From the NCBI RefSeq assembly GCF_000151315.2, contig NW_011887300.1, positions 1,192,037 through 1,256,036 of the forward strand: 64,000 nucleotides of DNA. Direction: 5' to 3'. The notes under the pieces were generated by a model. It made no database searches. It worked only from the letters and a program-made list of their open reading frames with translations, and was not told the DNA's origin. This stretch comes from Capsaspora owczarzaki ATCC 30864 (Eukaryota; Opisthokonta; Filasterea). Positions 15,153 through 64,000 of this stretch are shown here, piece by piece (the first letter of the stretch is position 1; the number at the start of each line of letters is the position of its first letter). The position numbers and the translations under genes were made by a program.

Positions 15153-17259
15153 TTACGATGACGCTGCAGGCGCAGGGGCTGGTGCTTCGTTGGCATTGCT
15201 GGCAGGGGCCTCGTCTGCGTGCGGTTGCTTGCCCTCAGGCGAGTCGAGACGGGCGCGCTTGGTATCACCAGTGGGCGTTGAATCGGCAGCATGCTTGCGG
15301 CTTGGGCTGGACTCGGTACCGCTGCTGACGTTGTTGGATGGAGCAGAGTGTGGCTGCATTTTGGAACCCGCATGGACGTGGAAAGTCAACGGTGCAGGTT
15401 GAGGTGGGGTCGGAACAAGACCGACAGGATGCAACATGCCCGACGAACCATCGAACGAGCCATTGTGCGGAGGCATTGGCGGCATGGCTTGCATGCCGAG
15501 TTGTTGCTGCTGTTGTTGCTGCTGCTGGTGCGCCGCCAGCTGTGCGCCAGTCGGAGTGGTGGGTGCAGAGCGGTTGCCGCCTCGTGGCGTACGGGGTGTC
15601 TTCTGGGCCTTGGCAGAGCCGCGCGGCGACAATTCCGAGCCTGCAGGCCATTCAACTGGCCGGCGAGGTGCGCGATTGTGGCGGCGTTTGAAGTTGGTGT
15701 CGGTGAACATGTACTGCAGGTTGGGGTCGATGGTCCAGAACGCGCCCTTGCCGGGTTCCGAATCCGGGCGCGGGACGCGCACAAAGCAGGGATTGAGCGA
15801 GAGGTTGTGCCGAATAGAGTTTTGCCAGCCGTTGTCGACGCGCTTGTAGTAAGGGAAGTGCTCAGTAATGTATGTGTAGATACCGTTGAGTGTCAGGCGG
15901 CGGTCGGCCGAGATATTGATGGCCTGGGCGATGAGCGTTGCGTACGAGAATGGTGGTTTCACAGACGGGTCGCCCTTGTAGTCAACGAGCGACTGCGGAG
16001 GATGGAGACCGTTGTCGTGGCCCTCTTCGTCCGACTCGTTCGGGCTCAAGGTGCCGGTAGGCGAGTGGGGCGAGACGCCGTCGCCACCAGCACCAGAACC
16101 AGCAGCAGCTCCAGCACGTGCCTTGCTGACAGGCGGCGTGTAGGACGGGAGGATGGAAAAGTTGCCAGTGCCAGAGGCAGACGAGCCAAGCGATTGAATG
16201 CCACCCAGATCAGAATGAGGCGCATCCTCATCGCCGCCAGGCACGGCCACCTGCAGCTTCTTCTTGGTCGGCTTGACGTTCTGCGAGACTGTGCCCAGCG
16301 GGAGCAAAAAGTAAAATCCCACGTCTCCGATTTGAATGAATGCTCTGTTAGAACAAGCCGGAGGAAGGAGATGAGACGACATTTGATCACGAAACTAAAG
16401 GGGAAACAGAGCAACAACAGCCCCACACTCGCAAAAAAGCAAAAGAAAAGAAAACCACCTACTTTGACTCGAGAGGCACCGGCGCACTGGCATTGTTGCA
16501 AAACTCATTGTCGACAAGCAGACCGTTCTTGCCAAGCGCGGAAATTTCAAAGTGGCGCATTGTAAAGTTGTATTCAATCTTGGCGTGGCGGCGGGAAATG
16601 AACTTGGATCGGCCAAGATCGACATCGACCGAGTCGACGTTATGCGAGGGTTTGCGACCAAGGGTGACTGAGAGCGAGCGGATGCAGTAGTCAATGGTCG
16701 GACCTTGGAGCTTGGCAAAGGCGGGCGTTTCCACCACTTCGAATGGAATGCCCTCTCCGGAACCAGGTGGTGCCGCACCCATGGGATCGGACGGATGGGG
16801 CATGTGTGGCGGCATTGCGGATGGATGTGGCGGCATCATATACGGCCCGCCGAGCACTTGCGGTGGCATCGGAGGCATGGGCGGCGGCGGCGGCGGCGGT
16901 GGCGGAGGAGGCGGAGGCAAGCCGCCAGGAGCAAAGAGCGGGCCGGGCGCTTGGTGGTGATCCATGCCGTAGCTCGGGTGCCCGTTAACAAAGGGAGGCT
17001 GCTGAGGATACATGTGTGGGGGGTTTGGTGGCATGCCTGGGCGCACCATCCCAGCCATCGCCATGCCGGGCGGCGGCGGCGGTTGGCCGTACGGGTTGGG
17101 GTACATGTTGTATCCCATCGGCGCAAAGGCTTGTGGTGGTGGCTGCGCGTACATGTAAGGGCCAGGTTGCTGCATCTGTTGCGGCGGCGGTGGTTGTCCA
17201 GGGTAGTACTGTTGCGGTTGACCGTACATTGCTGGCTGCGGCATGGGTTGTTGTTGCTG

Positions 17260-17291
<32 letters not shown>

Positions 17292-17673
17292 ACATGTCAC
17301 CGGAAGGCTGCTGCTGTTGCTGTGATGGTTGCTGCTGCTGCTGCTGCTGTTGTTGTTGTTGTTGTTGCTGTTGTGATGGCTGCTGCGGTTGTTGCGGGGT
17401 GAAGGAGGGGTCTTGGGATTGCTGGTGCTGTTGGGGAGGCTGCTGCGGCTGCTGTGGCTGTTGCTGTGGATAGCCTCCCATTTGCATGTAGTTGAGCGGG
17501 TGCATGGGGGCGCCGTGCATGTAATAGGGCGGTTGTTGCTGTTGCTGCGGCTGCTGTTGATAGTCTGGCTGAGGAGCGCCTCCCTGCTGCTGCATATACA
17601 GTTGTTGCGGAGGCGGTGGTTGTTGCTGTTGCGGAGCGGCGACAGCACCAGCGCCAGCGGCAGAGTCGCTCAT
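15153..17673 (-). CDS. FHA-forkhead transcription factor (FOXK / Fhl1 type) with polyQ N-terminus
   Basis: Two exons (16463-17673 and 15153-16344) encode 800 aa; the intron is in the FHA domain. The first ~300 residues are Gln/Pro-rich with long Q runs (codons around 17230-17400), a polyP/His stretch and Met/Pro/Gly-rich sequence. The FHA domain spans ~315-425 ([50 protein letters not shown]). The forkhead domain lies at ~527-630 ([46 protein letters not shown]). FHA plus forkhead is the architecture of animal FOXK and fungal Fkh/Fhl1, nuclear factors that couple phosphothreonine recognition to DNA binding. The FYFLLP ending of the FHA resembles Fhl1, so I do not choose between the two. The ATG is the first in frame before the Q-rich region. 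Confidence 0.9.
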
Positions 17674-18255
17674 GTCAGGGTAAGCTTTTGATGTGTTCAG
17701 TTGGCAAAATCGTCTTGTGTGATGGTACTTTGCCCTGCCACGTCCGAGAGCGAATGAATGAATGAATGCTTTGGCGACCAAAAGTGTGCCTGCGTTGTTT
17801 GTTTGTCTTGTCTGAGAGCTGTCTTGAAATCTTGGTGTTTTGTTTGTTTGTCAAACTCTTTGATTGTTGCTTGTTTTCTTTGACTATTTTTTGACTTGAA
17901 GTTGAAATTTCATCAACTATCTGTTCAAAAAACCAAAAAAACAAAAGTCAGATCACAAAAACGCAAAAGGAAAAAAAGAAAAAAAAAAGAAAAAAAAAAG
18001 AAAAAAAATGGAAGGAATGAAAAAAAAAAAACCCAAAGCAATGAAAATCAAATGGAAAAAAAAAAAGAAATAGAAAAAAAAACCCCACAAGGGCGGGAAA
18101 TGCGATCGAATCGCAGTCGCAAATCACGAGCAGAGCGACGATCGGGGCGGAGAGATGCAGCGAGAAGAAGAAGAAGAGCAGCTCAGCTCTGACAGACGCC
18201 GCAGACGAGCGAGCGTGCAACGTGGGAGAGAATGCTGGAAAAGACGGAAGTTACA

Positions 18256-19965: not shown

Positions 19966-22006
19966 CTAGATGTATGCAAGAGTAAGCGATTCGATGCCAA
20001 CCTGCATACCATAGACGCTGGGTTGAAGCAAAACCTCCCAGCCCTCGCGCAGTTGTTCAAAGATAGGATGGCTGCCTGGCCTGAGCAACACGAGGCCAAT
20101 GCTTGAATCGATGCGAGTTGGTTTCACAGCACACTGGTATCGAGCAACACCTCGCCCATCTCGAACGCTCAATTCAAAACAAACGCCAAGTGTGGTGTCG
20201 GGGAATTGCATCTCACGAATCACTTGAATCGCTTTCATACGAATCGGGCTTCCAGTGACATCCCGAGGCACTGTAACGCTCAGAGGTGGGTGGTTCTTGT
20301 CTTCGAAAAATTCATTTCCTCTGGTGTGCTGCACGCCTTGCCAGTAGTGCGCGTCCTCCATAATAATATCGGCAATCTCGGCTGGAAGTGCTGGAAGCGA
20401 TGCGGATTGATTCTCCAGCTCCAACCCGCTAGTCAGCAAACAGAATACGGTCTGCAGGTCTTCAGCAGTTGCCACTCGCGGAAGCCAGGAGAAAACAAGA
20501 GGGTTGATCTGCAGTTCGGAACTAAGCAACGAGCAAGCAAGATACAGAAGCAATCAGCCGGATCACTGACACGAGGAAGTTTGCATGGCCATCAACGGCT
20601 TCGGTTGGCAAGGACAACTTACAAAAGTTCTCTAAAACCGTTGACTTTGCGTGCCTCATCAAGCGCTTGACTCCCACGATTGCCAATGCAATTCCATCTT
20701 AAACTATCGCTCATAGGGTGAGCAGATGACAAATTGGCAAGCTCTTGCTCCATGTTCTCCGCGCATCGCCACTTACCTGAGCTCGATCAGCATCTTGTTC
20801 ACTTTGAGTGTTTCAGCAATCGCCTGTGCTCCAGCATCGCCAATCCGATTCTTGTCCAGACTGTCCCCTCGACCAGTTAGTACTCGGAATGACCTCTACT
20901 GGATCACTTCCTCACATGCATCAGTCAAAGTGAGAGATGGCTTACTTGAGACGCCACAATGTCTTGTTCACTTTGAGTGCCTCAGCAATCGCCTGCGCTC
21001 CAGCGTCGCCAATCTGATTTTCATGCAAACTGTTGTTTTGATTCCATTAGTGAGCCACTCTGAATGTTCTGCCGGCGCCTCTCGCTCACAAACATCAGTC
21101 AAAGTGAAATGACTTACAAGAGCTGAATCAGTCCCCTGTTGACTTTGAGTGCCTCAGCAATCGCCTGCGCTCCTGCGGCGCCAATCTGATTCGCGTTCAG
21201 TCTGTCCGTCCTCTCCGTCCGTGAGAATTCTAAAACGCCTTCTGCTAAATCACCCACTCACATATGCATCAGTCAAAGTGATATGCCTTACCCGAGATAA
21301 ATCAGCGTGTCGTTCACTTCGAGCGCCTCAGCAATCGCAAGCGCTCCAGCATAGCCAATCTGATTCTGATGCAGCCTGTCCACATCCCCCTCCATCAGTG
21401 AGCACTCTGCTGGATCACCCACTCACATATGCATCAGTCAACGTGAGATGACTTACATGAGCGTAGTCAGCGGCGTGTTCACTTTGAGTGCCTCGGCAAT
21501 TGCTCGCGCTCCACCTTCGCCAATCTGATTCGTTTCCAGCCTGTCCGTCCTCTCATCAGTGAGCACTCTGCTGAATCGCCCACTCATACGCGCCATTCAA
21601 AAAGTGAAAAATGCCTTACTCGAGAATCAGCAGCGTCGACACTTTGAGTGCCTCGGCAACCGCCTCCGCTCCAGCATCGTCAATCTGCTGCTTGTTCAGA
21701 CTGTTCTCCATTTCACCGCAAATTTCCCAAATCACTTTGCCCGTTTTTTTTTTTCCTTTTCTTACAAGAGACGTTCACGCGTCTTCCAGACTTTGTTGAA
21801 CAGCCCGCGCTGTGTCTTGGTCATGTTCTGATACAACAGCAGGAGTTGAGATCAAAACAAACAACAGGTCACAATGGGTTTTTTTTTTTTTTTTTTTTTT
21901 TTTCCCTTTTCCTTTACCTGAACGATCGCCTCCACGGCGGCTGGGGAGAGCTCGCTGGCGGCACTGCTAGAGGCTGCGGAAGACGCGTCGGCAGCATCGC
22001 TCGCAG

Positions 22007-22691: not shown

Positions 22692-25089
22692 TTAGATTGA
22701 GCTGTCAGCAACAGAGTTGCCGCCAACCTTCACGACGGCCTTGGGAGCGGCAGCCTGTGCGGGGGCAGCAGCAGGTGCAGGTGCGCCACCACGCAGCTTG
22801 GCAGCACGGAACTTCTCATAGTGAGTGAAGTGGGTGACATCGATCAAGTCTTGCATGTGGGTTCTGAAGGCCAAAGATAAAAGAGAAACAAAAGGTGAGC
22901 CACATTTCCTTTTTCTGGACTTTTTCCATCTTGAACAACTCCCCCCCCACTTACCGGATGAGCATGTCGCGGAGGTTGGAGAACTCGCAGTGATCCTTGT
23001 TCTCGACCTCGATAAAGCCCCACTTGGTCTTGCGGCCAAGAACGCCCTGGCCGTTGACAATGACCTCCTTGTCGCTGCCAATGACGGCGAACGGCAAGAG
23101 CTCGCTGAGCTTGGAGTTGATAGCCTTGTCCTCCTCGTCGTCGTCCTCGTTCACGTTGGGGTAAACGTTGATGGCGTGCTGGTCGAGGTCCTCAACAATG
23201 CGCTCCTTGAAGGCGGCACGCTCCTCAAGAGTAAGCGTGTCAGCCTTGGCAATGACGGGGATGATGTTGACCGACTTGTCGAGTTTCTGCAGAAAAAAAA
23301 ACCACAACGAAAAACAGCAGGTTACAACCATGAAAATGAGAATTGAAACATACATTCTCAGACAGACGCTTCCCTTGCAAGCCACGACACCCCTCCCCCG
23401 CCATAACCAGCAGCAACGCTCACCTTCATGAACTCAATGTCGATGGGCTTGAGCGAATGGCCGGTGGGGGCAATGAAATAAATGCAGGCGTGGATGCGCG
23501 AGTCAACGGGGGCAATGTTGCGGACGACGGCGCTCTCGTCGGCAAAGTACTTTTCGTTGAGCTTGTTGATGTGATCGAGGATGGGCTGCCACGAGCCGTC
23601 GTTGTTGATGTGATCGCCGAATCCGGGGGTGTCCGAGACAGTCAGACGAAGGCGGACGTTCTTCTCCTCAATGACGTGCGAGACAGAGTGGATTTCCACC
23701 GTCTTGGGGATCTTGGCGTCCTCAGCACCGGCAAGGGTCGAGCGGGCAATCTTGCTTCGGAAGAGCGTGTTGACGAGGGTCGACTTGCCGAGGCCAGACT
23801 CGCCGACAACCATCAGGTTGAACTGGAAACCACGCTTCATGGCCTTGCGGTTTTGTTGCTGTTGGAGCTGGTCAAAACCAACATAGCCGCCAAGCGCAGT
23901 GCGCAACTTGCCCCAGTTGGTCGATCGTGACAGGTGATCGGCCATCATGGCCTTGAACTCGTCAAGCGAGATGCTGCCGCTTCGGTCAGAGTCAGCCTTG
24001 GCGAGCATCTCGTCCACCTCTGCATCGGTCACCTTGCGGTCGAGGAGCTTCTGGACGGCAGTGCCGAGCTCGTCGCGGTCAATGCTGCCGCTGTGGTCGG
24101 TGTCGATCGAGTTGAAGGCTTGCTCGATGGCTGCGAAGAAGAAGAAGAATCAACAGTGAGTCAGAGCGCAAAACGAACAAAGGACATCCAATCCAAACCA
24201 ACTCAACACGGTCCAGCCGTGTTTTTTTTTTTGGTTGTTGCTGTTCTTCGATTGCTTGTTTCAAACTGCAGTGATCCATTCAAACAGCTAGGAAACCAGA
24301 GCAAAGAGAGCGATCGAAAACGAAACGAATGCTGTTCCAATCAAAACGCGCTTTCGAGCTCTTGTTTGTTGTTTTTCTTCGCTTCTTCCAAAACCAAACC
24401 GAGTCTCCAACAATCTTCACAGAACAGAATCTTCAAATGTCGACTTCAACAAACGATTCACTTGCAAAAAAAAAAAGCAGAAAAAAAGAAAAAAAAAAAA
24501 AAAAGAGAAGAAAACCAAAAAAGTGGAAAAAAGAAAAAAAAAACCGTTTGTTTGATTTTTTCCATGGATTTTTGGTTTTTGATTTTTCAGTTTTGTATGG
24601 TTTTTGCATTAGAAATTGACAAAAAAAAAAAAAAAAAAAACAGCGATCTTTTCATTTTTTTCCTTCGTTGTTTTTGTTTGTGATCGTTTTTCGAACAAGG
24701 CAGCGGTTTTCGCGATTGTTGACGCTGAAATGCAACGAATGCAAGACGAAGCTTGTCTTCGATGACGAAAGTCAGCCTTTTGAAACGAGAAAAATCAGCG
24801 AAAAAGCAAAAAAAAAAAAAAACCCAAAAAAAAAAAAAAAACCGGAACGCAAACAAACGAGAATGTTAAAGAAAAAGACCGCAAAAATAATAAAAATAAT
24901 AATAATAAAAAGAAAGAAATAAATCATGTTGGATGTTTTTGATTGTTGAAGGCAACGTCGGCTGCTGTTGTTGGGAACGCGAGTGCGACGCGATCAGACG
25001 CGATCAGACGCGACGTAAAGGAAAACGCAGGAGATGGACAAAAAGACTGAGCGACGACACGAAACAAAAAAAGCGAGATCGAACGAACG

Positions 25090-36800: not shown

Positions 36801-38937
36801 AGACCAAAAAAACCCCCAAACAAACAAACAAACAAACAAACAAATAAAAGTAAGAATAACGGCTCAGACCTCAAGTACCACACAAGCGTGAACAATACTC
36901 CTTACCACTCACGACGGCCATCTGATTAACACCCATCGCCACATCAATCACGTTGAGAGCGCGCTGGCTACCAAAAGCCAGATGCACAAATTGCGTGCCC
37001 AGCCAAGGAAGCCAAATAAACAGTGAACCATCCGTTGCAACGCAAAGGAGAGACGAGCCATGTCCAGCAACAATTCGAAATGGCACTGGCTTCCGCTGGC
37101 GAAACACGACGATATTTGGTCGGAAGATTCTGAAGGCACGAATCAAAAGAAGTGAGCTCGAGAAATTAGACGTTGTCGATCGAGCCGGAGCAAAAAAAAA
37201 AAAAAAAAACTCGCAAAAAACTCACGTCGTGGGAAGTCGGAGGCGATGAACGGCATAGCTGTGACAAACGAAAATGTCTCCCACCGAAGTCAGGCACGCA
37301 GTGAACGTGTCAGAAGCCACGACTTGCGAAATGCGTCCCGAAGTTGGAGCGACTGCTGGGACGGCCTTGGGTGCCAAAATGCGCGGGTCTCTTTGAGCAT
37401 GGCCTGAACGACAACAACATCAGCACAGGCGGATTCATGTCAGACATCTGGAACTAGCTCCACAATTTTCAATCGACTGCTTACCGAGCTGCCCAAAGTT
37501 TTGACCACAAGTGTACAGCTCTTGCTCGGAATAGAACGCAGAGTGGGTGCGCCCACAGGCAACGCCAATGATGGGGACTTTGCGTTCTCGTAGCGCTTTG
37601 ACGAGTTGCGGTTTTGGGCAGTTGGCGTGCGGACCAACAGGAAGGCCAGCTACGCCCAGTTGGCCGTGTTCGTTGCTGCCAAACGTAAAGACCTCACCCT
37701 TGCTGGTCACCACTGCCGAGTTGTCACGCGAAACGGAAACGGCCGCGCAGGCCTTGCCGTCGAGCAGTCCACCAACGCGGCGAGGCACAATGACAGTGTC
37801 ATCGCAGTCGTGACCAAGGCGGCCTCCCAAGCCAAACCCGCAAGTGTAAACCTCGCCTGCATCGGTTAGAAAGGCCGAGTGAAAGCTGGACGTCACCGCA
37901 GAGACGATTCGGGCTCGGGGGACCATGCGAACGAAGGCGTCCACGCGATCCGGATGGTTTCGGTCTTCCGCCCCAACATGTCCGAGCGTGTAGTTTCGAT
38001 CGAGTCCCCACGAGAATACGTCTGCGCCCTCCAGCAGCTGCTCTGTGGATATTAGCATGTCATAGAATGCCAATGCGGATGATGGCTTGTCGAAAACGGA
38101 GGATGATGAAGAAGGAGCTGGTTCATCGGCAGACGCGGCAGACGAGAGAGATGCTGATTCATGCTGGTCGGAGGCAGCTGGAGAAGAGGCAAAGGCAGCA
38201 TCACCCACGACAGGCGACGAGCGTCGTAGTGGAAGGGCCAGCGGTGCCACTGGCGTCGGTCGAACGCGGAAGGGCCACTCGCGATCTCGCGCAATCAAAT
38301 CCAACGGAGTCATCCCTTCAGCGTCTTTCAGATGGACGTCTGCGCCTGCCGCAATGAGCAGGATTGCTGTTTGAATCTGGCCCATGTACAGCGCACGATG
38401 TAGACTCGACCAGTTCGACTCGGCATCGACTGCATTGACCTGCGCGCCTTGTTCCAGCAACCACGTCGCTGCATGGATGTGATCACCGGTGGCAGCCAGC
38501 ATTAATGCAGTAATTCCAGAGCCACTTGGTCTTGCACTTGTGCGATTGACGATATCGCTAACACCTCGTCCTTGGCCAGTAGTGCCATGTACTTGTAAAG
38601 TGCTTGAACTTGCATTGGGAGCACGATTGAGCAATCGTGGCCTCGACTTGACTTCGCTCGAACTCGCGCTTCCGCCGCCGCCGCGCTGGCCATGGGTAGC
38701 AGAGGTCCCCGCCGAGCTTCCCTGGAGCTGGGACGGGTGGCTGGCGAGGCGATCGTGGAGCTCGGCGAGGTCGTCGCGGCGGCCCAGCTGCGCAGCGAGC
38801 AGAAACACCTGGAACGCCGCGTCCGCCGCACTCAACGGAGATGCATCAGAGCCCATGGGATGCGCCACAGGAGCGTGGTGCGCGCGGCCGTGGTGGTGGT
38901 GCTGTGGCGATGGCGTCGACGATGGCGAAGCGGCCAT
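33736..38937 (-). CDS. IBTK: IBTK orthologue (ankyrin, RCC1 and two BTB domains)
   Basis: Four exons (37485-38937, 37226-37403, 36906-37129, 33736-36788) encode 1635 aa; human IBTK has 1353. The N-terminus is Ser/His-rich, then ankyrin repeats at ~145-215 (GSGITALMLAATGDH; ESNWSSLHRALYMGQ; DAEGMTPLDLIARDR), RCC1 repeats at ~285-560 (DVFSWGLDRNYTLGH; VYTCGFGLGGRLGHD; VFTFGSNEHGQLG), and two BTB domains starting near 725 and 939 (IPVHKAILVARCEYFAAMFG). A long disordered region follows, then a C-terminal block (ALDLIQLEEKAIAAIEAFYA ... EEETDEMIVIERVVG) closely matching the human tail (LALIQIEEHAIQDLLVFYEA ... FVIVER). In animals IBTK is a CUL3 substrate adaptor and was named for binding BTK. The conserved tail and identical domain order make orthology firm; whether it acts with CUL3 here is inference. 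Confidence 0.93.
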
Positions 38938-40558
38938 TTTAGGAAGGCGGCTTTCTGAGAAAGCGAGATAATGATAAATGAGAATAATGAGAAGTGACGA
39001 CGGAATATAGATGGAAAGTCAATGTGGAGGTGGAAAGGCTGAGTACAGTAACAAACGTTGAAAGTTGAAGGAAGATTGAAAGTGGTGCGTTGTGTCGCGT
39101 TGATGAGACATGTCCGCATTCATGGCGCGCGTTTGGACAAGCTCGTTAAGATGGAAATATGTTTGTTGCTTGATTGCAAGTGAAAGCGGTGATAAGAGGT
39201 GCTCGCGGGTAGCAGTTTGATTCAAGCGAAACTTTCAAACATTGCGGTGAGGCTTGGACTCGAGGGGCGGCACGAATAAGCAATCATAGCTATAGCATTA
39301 GACTACCACTATAGAATTTAATAGATTTGACCGAGTAAAAGGCATGTAGCTCAAAGTAACAACAAAATCAAGCACTGCAGTTTTTTAAGGCACAATAACC
39401 AAAGGAAAGCCATAATTACAATTTTTGTAGCGACTTGCGATTTGGGGCATAAGATTGCATAAATACATGGAAAACACTACGTCTTACATATGGTGTTGCA
39501 CTGGAGTTGGCAGCTTTTACTCGTGAAGCGATACAGAAAGGTTGCTCAACTCTGACAAACAAAAACAATGAAACTTTTCAACCGTTCTGCTGAGGCACTT
39601 GAGCTTGGAGTCCTTCCGCAGTATGAGAACATGCAACGAGCTATATATTGTAGTTGACAATACAGAGGTACATGTAATTGCTCACCTGGAAGGCGACGAG
39701 AGCGAAATTTGCCGCCGTTCAGCATTACTTTCCTGGTTCAGCACCTACTCGGAGCCCTGCTCACTGTTAAGCAAATCCCGCAGAAGTTTATGCTAGCTCA
39801 ACCTAACCCGTGATTGTTTCTGCCTCGTAATCCACTTCATGGAGGTCCTTGTTGAAAAACCCCAATGTTTCGTTGATCAGCAATACAACCTTTTGCCGTG
39901 CGTTTCTCAATCAGCCGAGTCGAGGCTTCTTCCCCATTTGTGTACCGTTTGATGAAAGCACAACGTCCCGCAACAGGTACGAGTCGGTACTGAATGTGAT
40001 GGTTGTGCTGTGCTTCGAGCAGATTGGTGATGAAGAAGCGAAACGCTTGATCGTGTATCCGATATTGTCGCAACTTGTTCGGTGAGGCCTCTCGCTGTGA
40101 AATACCAACCGTCGTTGCTTTGGGGTTATGCCTCGGTGCATTGTCAGACTGGTGCCTCTCAAAATCAAACAGAGCGGTCCAAACATTGCGCCCACAAGCA
40201 TCAATTCTCATTTTCGTTCTGTTGTGCTACCATCGCATCGCCAATCCACGCTGAATTTCGCGCTGCAAGTAAAGAGGGGAAGAGGAGATTAGAAAACGAA
40301 TAGAGTCGGTTTGAACGACTAAGCGCAACGCGCTCAGCTGCTGGTTCAAGACGAACGCTGAGCTGCCTTGCTTCAACGGAAAAGTCAAAATTGCATGTCG
40401 ATTTCAACTTGGGTCGTTTTGCTCGTCTGACGATGAACGTGAAAGCCGACCACGAAGGTACTTGTGTCGATCGTTAGGGAAAGAGATGATAGGTTGAGGA
40501 CTGAGATGAGATCTCTAGTCTTTTTTTTTTTTTTTTTTTTTTTCAAAAATCTTCCAAA
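38938..40558. other. Intergenic interval between IBTK and LRR-kinase-RING genes
   Basis: This 1.6-kb interval is the promoter side of both divergent genes. It contains a 29-bp block (about 40014-40046, including GATTGGTGATGAAGAAGCGA) identical to the broken LRR copy at about 44247-44280, so a second LRR-module remnant. A T tract at 40520-40543 precedes the kinase-gene start. Open frames at 39599-39796 and 39837-40211 have no recognisable product. Confidence 0.55.
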
Positions 40559-43500
40559 ATGTTGTTAGATCTATATCAGAATATGAATCAGAGACAGCGC
40601 GAGTTGTACGATGAAGTCAAGAATGCGAATGGAGAGCTCGAGTAAGAGAAAAGCCCGAGTTGATTTGGAACACAGTTGTTGACAGCGCGAGTGTGCTGAC
40701 GAGAGTGGAGGGAATGGTCAGCCTGGAGCTAGGTCAGATTGGCGATGAAGAAGCGAAGGCGATTGCTGAGGCACTCAAAGTGAACAATACAGTGACTGAG
40801 CTCTTGTAAGTCATCTCACCATTGCTGGTGCATGAGAGTGGGCGATTCAGAAGAGCGCTCATTGGAGGGGATGGACAGTCTGCAAGAGAATGACATTGGC
40901 GATGTTGGAGCGCAGGCCATTGCCGAGGCACTCAAAGTGAACACGAAGTTGACTACGGTCTAGTAAGTCATCTCCCTTTGACTGATGCATGAGAGTAGGT
41001 GATTCAGAAGAGTGCTCATTGATGGGGGGATGTGGACAGTCTTTACAACAATCTGATTGGCGATGTTGGAGCTCACGCGATCGCTGAGGCACTCAAAATG
41101 AACACGACGCTGACTACGCTCTAGTAAGGCATCTCACTCTTATCGGTGCATGAGAGTGGGTGATTCAGCAGAGTGCTCACTGATGGAGGGGATAAACAGT
41201 CTGGGCAAGAATCAGATTGGCGATGTTGGAGCGCAGGCCATTGCTGAGGCGCTCAAAGTGAACACGACTCTGAAGGAGCTCTAGTAAGCTGGATTGCGCT
41301 TCAGAATTCCGATCGTGCGTGTATTAGCGCTCAAATTTGAACTAAATTACGGAAACTTCTAGTCTTGAAAGGAACTTCATTTCCGAAAATGGCATCAAGG
41401 CCTTGAATCAAGTCGGCAACAGATCATGCAAGCTTTGGTAATTTTGACATGCTGGCTCTGCAATCACAGTTGGATGGACAGCAGCACTTACCTGCGTTGG
41501 ATTTTAAACAGGACGGACGATCAGCGCAAGCCGTCACCTGCTCAACTACAGGAGATGGCGTCTCGCGCCGCTCAAGCCCGTCCCAGCGTGCTGTTAGATC
41601 AGAATACGAATCAGAGACAGCGTCAGTTGTACGATGAAGTCAAGAATGAGAGTGGACAGCTCTAGTAAGATAAAAGTCCGAGTTGATTGGAACACAGTGT
41701 TGACAGCGCGAGTGTGCTGACGATGATGGAGGGGAACAGTCTGGATCAAGAGCGGATTGGCGATGAAGAAGCGAAAGCGATCGCTGAGGCACTCAAAGTG
41801 AACACGACGCTGACTACGCTCAAGTAAGGCATCTCACTCTTGTTGGTGGATGCAAGTGGGATTCAGAAGAGTGCTCATTGATGGAGGGGATGGACAGTCT
41901 GCAACAGAATCAGATTGGCGATGTTGGAGCGCGGGCGATTACTGAGGCACTCAAAGTGAACACGACGCTGACTACGCTCTAGTAAGGCATCTCACTCTTG
42001 TTGGTGCATGAGAGTGGGTGATTCAGACGAGTGCTCACTGATGGAGGGGATGAACAGTCTGAGTGCGAATCAGATTGGCGATGTTGGAGCGCAAGCGATT
42101 GCTGAAGCACTCAAAGTGAACACGACGCTGACTTGGCTCTTGTAATCTATGTCACTCTTGCTAATGCATGTGAGTGAGCGATTCAGACGAGTGATCACTG
42201 ATGGAAGGGATGAACAGTCTGGACAACAATCTGATTGGCGATGTTGGAGCGCAGGCGATTGCCGAGGCACTTAAAGCGAACAAGACGCTGAAGGCGCTCA
42301 AGTAAGTTGAATTGCGCTTCAGACTTCCAATCGTGCGTGTGTTAGCGCTCAAACTTGAAACTACATTCCGAAACTACTAGTCTTGAAAGGAACTTCATTT
42401 CCGAAAATGGCATCAATGCTTTGAAACAAGTCGGCAACAGAACATGCAACCTTTCGTAATTTTGACATGCTGGCTCTGCAATCACAGTTAGATGGAGCGC
42501 TGCACTGACCTGCGTTGGACTGTCATACAGGACGGACGATCAGCGCAAGCCGTCACCTGCTCAACTACAGGAGATGGCGTCTCGCGCCGCTCAAGTCCGG
42601 GCCACCATTCCAACAACTAAAGATCCGCAAGTTGCCCGTTCTGCAGCCGGCATGCCACACGCGGCTCCAAGTTCCAGCTACGCTGCTTCTGCTCCGACGC
42701 CTCCGCCCCGTCCTCCCAAACCTGCAACGTTACGAATGTCCAGTTCCAAGTCAAGCGCGCATCAGGATATCCGTCAACTGCAAGCTCGCATTGCCCAGCT
42801 CGAACTCGAGCGCCAAGCACCACCAACAACCTCTGCTGTCCCCATCCTCTCCAGCATTCCGCGAGTGTCGTTGCAAGTTCTGTCACAAGCCACAGCGCAG
42901 TTTTCAGAGTCTAAGCGCATTGGTGGAGGAGGATTTGGCAGCGTCTACTCTGGAGTCTGGAGCGGTCAGCGAGTTGCTGTCAAACGCTTGGCAGCGGATT
43001 CAACCCAAGGCGTCGCTCAATTCGAGGCAGAGCTCGAAGCCCTCTCGCGTTTCCGTCACCCGAATATCGTCACCATCATGTGCTATACCCAGGAAGGCAA
43101 CGAGCGCTGCTTGGTCTACGAACTGATGGCCAACGGTTCTGTTCGCGACCGTCTCGATCGCAAGGGTGGCACGCCTGCATTGAGCTGGCAGCAACGCCAA
43201 AATATTGCGACCGATATTGCAAATGCTATGCACTTTGTGCAAACTGCCATTCCGCGTCAGCCGCTGTTCCACCTGGACCTCAAGACAGACAATGTACTTC
43301 TGGACGCTCACTTCAACGCAAAGGTCGCCGACTTTGGTCTGACGCGCTCTGCGCCAGCTCAAGTAGATGCGCACAGTTACATTCGTACGCAGACTGTTCA
43401 AGGAACCCTTCAGTACATTTGCCCACAGTACCAACACGAAGGCAAGGTCTCCGTCAAAACTGACGTGTACTCGTACGGCATGATTCTGCTTGAGCTCGTT

Positions 43501-43938
43501 ACTGGACAGCAGCCCAGCATCGACTTGATGTCTACCGTTCGACACCAGCTGAAGCGGAGCCGTAAAATCGATGCACTGCTTGACAAAGCCGTTGACTGGA
43601 GCAGTCAAGACAAGGAGTCGGTTCAAGTCATCGCCGAGCTTGCGGTTGATTGCCTCGATCCCGCACGAGTCTATCGACCATCGTTCGGCGAGGTCCTGAG
43701 ACGATTGTCGGGGGAAGAAGCTGAAGTAAATGAGGACGAGCCGATCGAAAACAGTGATCGCGAGTGCTTGCTTTGTTGGAGCGCCCCGACGAATGCCAAG
43801 CTGATGCCGTGCTGCCACGCATGTGTCTGCGTTGCATGTGCTCAAGAAATGATACAGCGTCGAGACAAGTGCATGATTTGCCGCGTCCCTCCGACCGCCT
43901 TTGAAACTGGCAAATACAACCAGACTTTTGTTCCGTGA
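40559..43938 (+). CDS. LRR / non-RD protein kinase / RING protein with duplicated LRR block
   Basis: Thirteen exons: 40559-40641, 40722-40805, 40879-40962, 41040-41123, 41200-41283, 41363-41437, 41512-41664, 41740-41823, 41898-41981, 42058-42141, 42218-42301, 42381-42455, 42531-43938; 821 aa. Each 84-nt exon is one LRR (IGDVGAQAIAEALKVNTTL). Exon 7 fuses the linker seen before the kinase (TDDQRKPSPAQLQEMASRAA) to a second copy of the N-terminal motif (NQRQRQLYDEVKNESGQL), so LRR block and linker occur twice. The kinase (~478-740) has IGGGGFGSVYSG, VAVKRL, HLDLKTDNVLL and DFGLTR; the HRD arginine is Leu, a non-RD kinase of the TKL/IRAK-RLK kind. A C-terminal C3HC4 RING follows (~772-812: CLLC, MPCCHACVCVACA, CMICR). 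No signal peptide or membrane helix. Likely intracellular, combining sensing, phosphorylation and ubiquitin ligation (inference). Confidence 0.88.
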
Positions 43939-44054: not shown

Positions 44055-44295
44055 TGTCGAAATGTCAACTTCAGATCGTTTTGCTCGTCTGACGATGACC
44101 ATGACGGAAATCTGATGATAGATCTATGATCAAGTCAAGAATAAGAGTGGAGTGCTCGAGTAAGAGAAAATCCCGAGTTCATGATTATTGGAACAGTATG
44201 ACAGCATGTGTGCTGACGAGAATGGAGATGAACAGGCTGAACACAGGGAGCAGATTGGTGATGAAGAAGCGAAACGCGATCGCTGAAGCACTCTC
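44055..44295 (+). pseudogene. Truncated LRR-kinase-RING gene copy
   Basis: Directly downstream of the intact gene, this stretch repeats its promoter-proximal sequence (CGTTTTGCTCGTCTGACGAT, as at about 40417-40436), then part of exon 1 (GATAGATCTATGATCAAGTC; GAGTGCTCGAGTAAGAGAAAA with the donor), the intron, and the start of the first LRR exon (CAGATTGGTGATGAAGAAGC), and ends. The ATG region is damaged, part of exon 1 is missing, and no kinase part remains. Confidence 0.7.
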
Positions 44296-62014: not shown

Positions 62015-64000
62015 TCACGGAACAAAAGTCTGGTTGTATTTGCCCGTTTCAAAGGAGGTCGGAAGGACTCGGCAAACCATGCACCTGTCTGGACGCTCGA
62101 TCATCTTTTGAGCACACGCAACACAGACACATGCGTGGCAGCACGGCATCAGCTTGGCATTCGCCGGGGCGCTGTAACAGTACATGCACTCGCGTTCGCT
62201 GTCTTCGACAGCCTCTTCCTCGTTCACTTCAGCTTCTTCGCCCGACAATCGTCTCAGGATCTCGCCGAACGACGGTCGATTAACTCGCGCTGGTTCAAGA
62301 CAATCCGCGGCAAGATCGGCCCCGATCATCTGTGCCGACTCCTTGTCTTGAGGGCTCCAGTCAATCGCCTTGTCCAGCACCGCATCGATTTTGCGGCTCT
62401 TCTTAAGCTCGCGCCGAACGGTACCCATCAGATTGATACTGGGCTGCTGTCCCGTAACGAGTTCAAGCAGAATCATGCCGTACGAGTACACGTCCGTTTT
62501 GATCGAGACCTTGCCGTCGTGGTGGTACTCTGGGCAAATGTACTGAAGCGTTCCTTGAACCGTTTGCGTACGAATGTAGCTGTGTGCATCCACTTGCATT
62601 GGCGCAGAGCGCGTCAGACCAAAGTCGGCGACCTTTGCGTTGAAGTGAGCGTCCAGCAGCACATTGTCCGTCTTGAGGTCCAGGTGGAACAGCGGCTGAC
62701 GTGGAATGGCAGTTTGCACAAAGTGCATAGCATTTGCAACACCGGTGGCAATGTTTTGGCGTTGCTGCCAGCTCAATGCAGGCGTGCCACCCTTGCGATC
62801 GAGACGATCGCGAACAGATCCGTTTGGCATCAGCTCATAGACCAAGCAACGCTCGTTGCCTTCCTGGGCATAGCACATGATGGTGACGATATTCGGGTGA
62901 CGGAAACGCGAGAGGGCTTCGAGCTCTGACTCGAACTGAGAGATGCCTTGAGTTGAATCCGCTGCCAAGCGTTTGACAGCAACTCGCTGACCGCTCCAGA
63001 CACCAGAGTAGACGCTGCCAAATCCACCGCCACCGATACGCTTGGACTCTGAAAACTGCGCCGTTGCTTCCGACAGAACTTGCAATGGTACTTTCAGAAT
63101 GTTGGATAGGAAAGGTGCGGCAGAGATTATTGGTGGTGCTTGGCGCTCGAGTTCGAGCTGCGCGATGCGAGCTTGCAGTTGACGGATCTCTTCGGTGGAG
63201 TCAGTTGGTATCGCGGGACCCGCGTTCGCGCTGCCACGGGGTTTGGAGGCAGGGGCAGGAGGGGTCGGAGAAGATGGAGCGTGGCTGGAACTTGGAGCAG
63301 CGTGTGGCACGCTGGCTGCAGAACGGGCAACTTGCGGATTTTTAGTTGTTGGAACGCTGGGACGGACTTGAGCGGCGCGAGACGCCATCTCCTGTAGTTG
63401 AGCAGGTGACGGCTTGAGTTGACCGCCCGTACTGTTTAAAATCAAACACAAGTAAGTGCACCGCTCCATCCCATTATGATTGCAGAGCAAGCATGTCAAA
63501 ATTACGAAAGTTTGCATGTCCTGTTGCCGACTTGTTTCAACGCATTGATGCCATTTTCGGAAATGAAGTTCTGATCAAGACTAGACGTTTCGGAATGTAG
63601 TTTCAAGTTTGAGCGCCAATACATGCACGATCGGAATTCTGAAGCGCAACTCGACTTACTAGAGTGTTGTCAGATTCTTGTTCATTTTGAGTGCTTCAGC
63701 AAGCATTTGTGCTCCAGCATCGCCAATCTGATTCTCGTCCAGACTGACCATGGCCTTCATCAGTTGAATCGCCCACTCTCATGCACCAGCCGAAGTGAGT
63801 TGCCTTACTAGAGCCTGGTCATCGTTGTGTTCACTTTGAGTGCTTCAGCAATCGCTTGCGCTCCAATATCGCCAATCTGATTCACACCCAGACTGACCAT
63901 CCCCTCCATCAGTGAGCACTCTTCTGAATCACCCATCACATACACCAGCAAGAGTGAGGTGTCTTACGAGAGCGTAGTCAGCGTCGTGTTCACGGAAAGA
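62015..64000 (-). CDS. LRR / non-RD protein kinase / RING protein, 5' part beyond window
   Basis: The last exons are present: 63969-64000 (partial LRR), 63809-63892 and 63660-63743 (84-nt LRR exons), 63506-63580 (short terminal LRR exon) and 62015-63431 (linker, kinase, RING). The encoded sequence is closely similar to the gene at 40559-43938: QLKPSPAQLQEMASRAAQV, GGGGFGSVYSGVWSGQRVAV, HLDLKTDNVLL (non-RD), DFGLTRSAP, and RING CMYC, MPCCHACVCVACA, CMVCR, then ETGKYNQTFVP. The kinase regions are nearly identical, while the linker (residues about 20-85 of the last exon) differs more. The 75-nt exon and the following intron are also alike in both genes. The number of LRRs and any LRR duplication cannot be known here. 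Same inferred role as its paralogue. Confidence 0.88.

Follow-up and report, generated by a model that had tools for sequence, protein, structure and literature searches.

The closest described counterparts of the gene considered here come from fungi, plants, animals and a brown alga. The gene itself occupies positions 40433-43938 (forward strand) of a 64,000-nucleotide stretch of Capsaspora owczarzaki ATCC 30864 (contig NW_011887300.1, positions 1,192,037 to 1,256,036; hereafter the window) and encodes, in a single polypeptide, leucine-rich repeats (LRRs) of the ribonuclease inhibitor (RI)/NLR type, a TKL/IRAK-like protein kinase with the catalytic motif HLDLK and a C-terminal C3HC4 RING. The best named protein matches were those of C. 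owczarzaki ATCC 30864.

First, in the het-d/het-e (NWD) family of Podospora, diversifying selection acts on four positions per repeat where the repeats form the interaction surface, and the repeats evolve in concert (PMC1805685); the repeats of fungal NLRs are of the WD, ANK and TPR types, no LRR motifs having been found (PMC4986451). The Capsaspora genes resemble these systems in forming a paralogous family with concerted repeat evolution within and between genes, but the fungal proteins carry WD, ANK or TPR repeats along with a nucleotide-binding domain. To our knowledge, the het-d/het-e family has no kinase-RING output. Second, the plant protein KEG unites RING, kinase and repeat domains, although its repeats are ankyrin and HERC2-like, with no LRR named among them (PMC5385374). 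LRSAM1 is an LRR-RING E3 ligase that marks intracellular bacteria (PMC10032600), and LRR-ROCO GTPases of a brown alga were proposed as immune receptors (PMC4053784). LRSAM1 differs from the Capsaspora protein by the SAM motif recorded in its name. We know of no kinase in LRSAM1, and the RING of KEG is N-terminal. Pairwise fusions of these modules are already known (KEG, LRSAM1, Roco), whereas the triple LRR-kinase-RING family appears to be without a description in the open-licence papers searched, a search whose weaker part returned mostly papers without Capsaspora.

Gene model and domains of the window locus

Joining 13 exons with GT..AG boundaries over 40559-43938 (forward strand) yields an 821-residue protein with no internal stop, the form proposed in an earlier note on this DNA. 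The features of the locus are:

40433-40457, forward strand: initial coding exon in the deposited isoform P0002 (MNVKADHE), placed by rebuilding that protein exactly from window exons
40559-40641, forward strand: exon 1 of the 821-residue model (ATG at 40559); the exon starts at 40569 in P0002
40722-41283, forward strand: LRR block 1, 84-nucleotide one-repeat exons 40722-40805, 40879-40962, 41040-41123 and 41200-41283, with AG..GT bounds, phase 2 and an LRR match; AlphaFold2 confidence about 90-98
41363-41437, forward strand: capping exon of LRR block 1 (75 nucleotides), joined to 42531 in P0002
41512-42455, forward strand: LRR block 2, absent from P0002, exons 41512-41664, 41740-41823, 41898-41981, 42058-42141, 42218-42301 and 42381-42455; open in the 821-residue join, a duplicate of block 1
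42531-43938, forward strand: last exon, a single open stretch (stop included) that encodes a linker, the TKL kinase and the C-terminal RING
42904-43701, forward strand: kinase domain as matched by Pfam, spanning residues 478-743 of the 821-residue model
43756-43893, forward strand: C3HC4 RING (zf-C3HC4_3, 8e-10), residues 762-807 of the same model
43882-43935, forward strand: 18-residue tail beyond the final Cys of the RING, with TFVP at its end; R46, G55, T60 and F61 are invariant in a 12-row RING alignment

The repeats are encoded by eight 84-nucleotide exons, one repeat per exon with phase 2 entry, and by two capping exons of 75 nucleotides. Kinase and RING share one exon within a 490-codon open stretch (42466-43938), so that their pairing needs no splicing. 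The deposited protein P0002 (638 residues), whose database entry is labelled 'variant', is letter for letter an exact splice of 40433-40457, 40569-40641, exons 2-6 and 42531-43938. It starts 126 bases upstream of the ATG at 40559 and skips exons 7-12, either by exon skipping or by a choice made in prediction. These exons are part of the second LRR block, as the stretches 40572-41594 and 41595-42604 align over 1004 bases with 87% identity. The reading frame is kept in both forms, and a possible 821-residue product would carry both LRR blocks.

A Pfam scan of the 821-residue model matched all three domains with E-values that exclude chance matches (LRR_6, 1.2e-39; Pkinase, 5.9e-41; zf-C3HC4_3, 8e-10), and thus bore out the claim of the earlier note that LRRs, a non-RD kinase and a RING stand in one polypeptide. 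The catalytic loop, HLDLKTDN, lacks the Arg before the catalytic Asp and retains the Asp itself. The nearest solved kinases were SYMRK, BAK1, FERONIA, BRI1 and IRAK4 (structure re-alignment covered kinase chains only); the window kinase is of the IRAK-like TKL type, and its paralogues are named TKL/IRAK by NCBI. Among solved structures the LRRs matched 5irm, which we take to be NOD2, ribonuclease inhibitors and NLRPs. The predicted structure of P0002 has a mean confidence (pLDDT) of 80.5, with the LRRs at about 90-98.

The RING displays eight zinc ligands with C3HC4 spacing, and all eight, as well as the Arg following the last Cys, are present in 12 of 12 aligned rows. This alignment comprises 12 of 20 RING pieces; near-duplicates were omitted, as were P0022 (without that Arg and without the TF tail) and P0189 (Tyr at that position, cut short). 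A RING-like stretch of P0182 lay outside both the 20 pieces and the alignment, and the Arg is also missing in P0221 and P0223. The nearest solved relatives of the RING profile were MGRN1, CGRRF1, MEX3C, cIAP1, RNF141 and cIAP2, with MDM2 lower. The description of this RING as IAP-type therefore holds loosely: cIAP1 and cIAP2 are among its best solved relatives, but so are MGRN1, CGRRF1 and MEX3C. The MGRN1, CGRRF1, MEX3C, IAP and MDM2 RINGs share the C3HC4 pattern and are the closest sequence matches, although the profile matches stop before most of the tail. An aromatic residue near the C-terminus of the window protein resembles IAP/MDM2 tails.

The protein would work like an intracellular recognition receptor, yet it lies outside the NLR, IRAK, RLK, Roco and IAP families, each of which fails on a defining feature. 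None of NACHT/NB-ARC, BIR, death domain and Roc-COR was among the 12 Pfam families matched by the 821-residue model at E<=0.01. The absence of NACHT rules out membership of the NLRs; like NOD2-type NLRs of animals and plants, the protein has an RI-type LRR sensor and is apparently cytosolic, but its LRRs are N-terminal, not C-terminal to a switch domain. The absence of a death domain rules out an IRAK of that kind. A plant-type LRR-RLK is ruled out by the lack of a clear transmembrane stretch, the highest 19-residue hydropathy being 1.22 in P0002 (hydropathy scan only, no dedicated predictor). The protein is also without a clear ectodomain, and its HLD departs from the HRD carried by the IRAK4, BAK1, BRI1 and SYMRK kinases. 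It shares LRRs and a TKL-group kinase with Roco proteins of the LRRK2 type, and its near paralogues P0021 and P0022 have the order LRR-Roc-COR-kinase-RING, but the window protein lacks Roc-COR and so falls outside that family. IAP membership is ruled out by the missing BIR. Judging from its hydropathy, the protein looks cytosolic. An Rfam search returned no match at gathering cut-offs.

The gene family and its varied input domains

The kinase-RING exon has at least 89 matches in the Capsaspora genome (27.46 Mb, 29 contigs), 23 of which read from inside the kinase into the RING with no stop (manual reading of the match table). One further match running from kinase into RING, at C4:829503, contains stops. 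At C8:1148620/1149805 and C9:849336-850609, kinase and RING are covered jointly by adjacent matches, and on C10 they are matched by two rows about 4 kb apart, another C10 row covering the RING only. Twelve deposited Capsaspora proteins combine LRRs with this kinase and RING and lack Roc-COR, and a RING was recognized by pattern in 20 of 62 deposited relatives (in both counts P0010 and P0011 appear to be variants of one gene). Databases often label family members 'TKL/IRAK protein kinase'. No filasterean other than Capsaspora was named among the matches listed (the best 120 per search, about 8000 candidates being scored in each and several rows nameless).

Across the 62 deposited relatives the catalytic-loop motif is HLD in 53, HRD in 2, HFD in 2 and HLN in 1, the pattern being unmatched in 4; HLD also occurs in RING-less relatives. 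The earlier note had taken the non-RD motif as a pointer to immunity; a motif that is family-wide carries little weight in this respect, and the argument was dropped. The note had also pictured one molecule in a unicellular organism. The organism is indeed a unicellular holozoan, but the molecule belongs to a family; that the domain order might prove to be a common and already characterised family, as the note allowed, came half true, the family being common in Capsaspora and in databases.

In a kinase tree of 80 rows, the RING-bearing Capsaspora kinases, except P0057, form one clade (25 rows, support 99/94), within which six rows have no RING by pattern. Beside it stands a RING-less clade composed mostly of LRR-kinases (43 rows, 100/100), and P0057 and an ankyrin-kinase-RING metagenome protein fall outside both. 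The tree suggests that the kinase-RING cassette predates the expansion of the family in Capsaspora and that the RING was lost from the large RING-less clade, some placements being long-branched. A 1270-residue deposited protein (P0001, at L028) contains three consecutive kinase domains, one of which groups with the RING-bearing clade.

In relatives, other domain combinations precede the cassette. The Pfam scan identified SH2-kinase-RING in the Capsaspora proteins P0014 and P0018, both with the phosphotyrosine-binding motif FLVR; these SH2-TKL kinase-RING proteins can be likened to a Cbl-type ligase, to which they add a kinase of their own. LRR-Roc-COR-kinase-RING was found in Capsaspora P0021 and P0022, and in P0017 by precomputed domains only; all three are LRRK2-like Roco proteins with a terminal RING. 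Capsaspora P0015 combines COR-B and kinase with two RINGs. Among metagenome proteins, the scan found ankyrin-kinase-RING in P0026 and ARM-WD40-kinase-RING in P0221; P0223 is a kinase-RING protein with a coiled-coil-looking N-terminus. P0221 and P0223 look like pseudokinases because HLGL replaces the catalytic Asp motif. Finally, the metagenome protein P0218 has eight WD40 stretches and a kinase (25 of its 58 matched families being shown), with a RING in its precomputed domains that is also visible in the sequence.

Divergence of the LRR face and other features of the window

The divergence of the repeats was analysed in 212 LRR exons from 20 arrays, restricted to 84-nucleotide exons scoring at least 11 of 27 against the consensus. 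The most variable codons are x25 (3.83 bits), x2 (3.76) and x1 (3.50). In the P0002 model, x25 and the split codon xs lie within the predicted beta-strand in four of four repeats, and x1 and x2 at most three residues past it. Residues at such LRR positions face the concave side. The closest exon pairs were picked on the whole exon and kept disjoint, and 43 of 61 were retained once those with poorly alignable introns had been removed (set A). At codon bases 1 and 2, divergence in set A is 0.294 for x25/xs/x1/x2, 0.181 for flanking introns, 0.137 for helix-side variable codons and 0.029 for structural codons, that is, a face/intron ratio of 1.62 (confidence interval, CI, 1.33-1.97), against 0.76 for the helix side and 0.16 for structural codons. 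The ratio is 1.69 between genes (1.36-2.08, 32 pairs) and 1.70 at RING loci (1.35-2.12, 39 pairs). With the textbook exposed positions of xxLxLxx, which are x24, x25, xs, x1 and x2, it is 1.43 (1.16-1.73). When the top four codons were taken from half of the arrays, the other half gave a median of 1.51 (5-95% range 1.11-1.98; 198 usable of 200 overlapping splits). Pairs picked on structural codons (set C), a less clean control, gave 2.27 for the face (1.82-2.77) and 1.19 for the helix side (0.94-1.46). The ratio of nonsynonymous to synonymous divergence (dN/dS) at x1, x2 and x25, measured against all-codon S, is 1.70 (1.35-2.15, 69 pairs). Median dN/dS is 0.14 for the kinase and 0.27 for the RING (105 pairs, 18 sequences, one gene included twice); both are under purifying selection.

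A fraction of 0.198 of the 212 LRR exons has its nearest exon within its own array, with 0.064 expected and a maximum of 0.151 in 1000 shuffles, an excess that could stem either from exchange or from recent duplication. LRR exons number 3 to 28 in 18 of 20 fetched stretches, some of which may hold two genes, and none was found in L022 and L026. The family thus displays the variable repeat number of the het-d/het-e type and a similarity within arrays above that of shuffles, as repeat exchange would produce, which recent duplication could also explain. The LRR binding surface shows signs of a pressure towards continual change, of the kind found where self is told from non-self.

The window holds a second family member:

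62018-63433 (C9:1254054-1255469), reverse strand: kinase-RING exon, 82% identical, found by own-genome matching; its LRR exons run beyond the window end, and the L012 exons match P0004

Degenerate fragments of the same family lie on both sides of the gene (40017-40046 and about 44076-44277), and a group of five similar LRR exons at about 20776-21540 (reverse strand), in whose vicinity the kinase has no match, may be an orphan or decayed member. Elsewhere on the reverse strand, one open frame (23358-24149) joins an EF-hand pair (Pfam 2.2e-17) to a septin GTPase (1.1e-49), possibly a calcium-binding septin; a Forkhead frame (15153-16394) adjoins an FHA-bearing frame (16459-17850), perhaps forming one FoxK-like gene over 15153-17850; and a single frame at 37435-39018 contains ankyrin and RCC1 repeats.

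A proposed recognition receptor and its alternatives

The best explanation, to which we assign a probability of roughly one half, is that the protein is a cytosolic recognition receptor carrying its own signalling output. Diverse ligands would bind the concave face formed by the beta-strands of the LRR horseshoe and alter how the protein assembles; its non-RD kinase would phosphorylate itself or nearby partners without regulation through the activation loop; and the RING at the C-terminus, probably dimeric, would ubiquitinate the receptor, the ligand or partners, so that the signal is passed on or the target removed. New specificities might arise as one-repeat LRR exons are duplicated and exchanged, with selection acting at about four positions per repeat. 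The proposal of the earlier note, a single molecule that could sense a ligand and then phosphorylate and ubiquitinate partners, is partly supported: it agrees with this anatomy and gains from the fast change of the beta-strand face. The presumed purpose of the family would be defence or self/non-self discrimination. In animals, NOD, RIPK2 and XIAP are three separate proteins of one pathway. We tentatively propose, at less than even odds, that the Capsaspora proteins could represent a separate protist class of intracellular recognition repertoire, in which a kinase and C-terminal RING cassette is joined to sensors that can replace one another (LRR, LRR-Roc-COR, SH2, ankyrin, WD40, ARM), the repeat sensors evolving by exon exchange and positive selection, and one polypeptide does the job of all three.

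Several observations weigh against the receptor interpretation. Within-array pairs alone give a face/intron ratio that is not significant (1.42, CI 0.76-2.23, 11 pairs), the four face positions were chosen post hoc, once variability and divergence counts were known, and x4 (0.32) and x24 (0.64), on or beside the face, are not fast. Against S of the same codons, dN/dS is not above 1 (1.26, 0.84-1.88, 69 pairs), being 0.79 (0.38-1.73) in the 32 pairs at least 88% identical; an earlier count of 146 overlapping pairs gave 1.05 at x1 and x2, and 0.75 for x1, x2, x4, x24 and x25. All LRR divergence data come from one strain. Moreover, 42 of the 62 deposited relatives are RING-less by pattern, and since they are the more numerous, sensing needs no RING. 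Finally, among 24 relatives scanned, P0004, P0013, P0017 and P0023 have hydropathy peaks of 1.62-1.67, borderline for a membrane segment.

First among the alternatives, though unlikely, is a diversified family of substrate-receptor E3 ligases, in which the LRR face would select own or foreign substrates and the kinase would prime the substrate or control the RING, with selection bearing on substrate choice, as in expanded F-box families, and without receptor signalling. The invariance of the eight ligands and of the Arg past the last Cys in all 12 aligned RINGs speaks for it, as does the diversifying LRR face, but the prevalence of kinases without a RING (42 of 62 by pattern) makes the kinase the constant output, and SH2 and Roc-COR inputs resemble those of signalling proteins.

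Next, and likewise improbable, the proteins would recognize cues from kin, prey or hosts instead of microbes, for self/non-self or prey sorting during aggregation or feeding, by way of ingested or transferred molecules. In evolutionary terms the nearest parallel is a family for allorecognition in fungi, in which four residues of each repeat are under selection (PMC1805685), and both aggregation (PMC13171883) and a response to prey proteins (PMC12422584) are described for Capsaspora; yet the hydropathy scan gave no clear membrane anchor for recognition by contact.

A multicopy family with turnover of its copies, in which relaxed constraint and gene conversion produce non-adaptive variation, would agree with the degenerate fragments flanking the gene (40017-40046 and about 44076-44277) and with a same-codon dN/dS not above 1. 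It is very improbable: relaxation alone should not raise replacement-type bases beyond the intron rate, and a kinase dN/dS of 0.14 indicates working genes. A false join of LRR exons to the kinase-RING exon of a separate gene, hinted at by the disagreement between the 821- and 638-residue models, was dropped as most unlikely, because all three domains occur together, without Roc-COR, in 12 deposited Capsaspora proteins and P0002 can be spliced exactly from the window, though its sequence may itself be a prediction.

Since transfection of Capsaspora has been reported (PMC6001378), the recognition receptor interpretation can be tested in the organism itself. If it is true, a close unicellular relative of animals has a recognition repertoire without the usual NACHT or death domains, in which sensor, kinase and ubiquitin ligase are combined in a single chain. 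Such a repertoire would bear on the origin of animal innate immunity, which may have been built out of modules of this kind or have arisen beside them.
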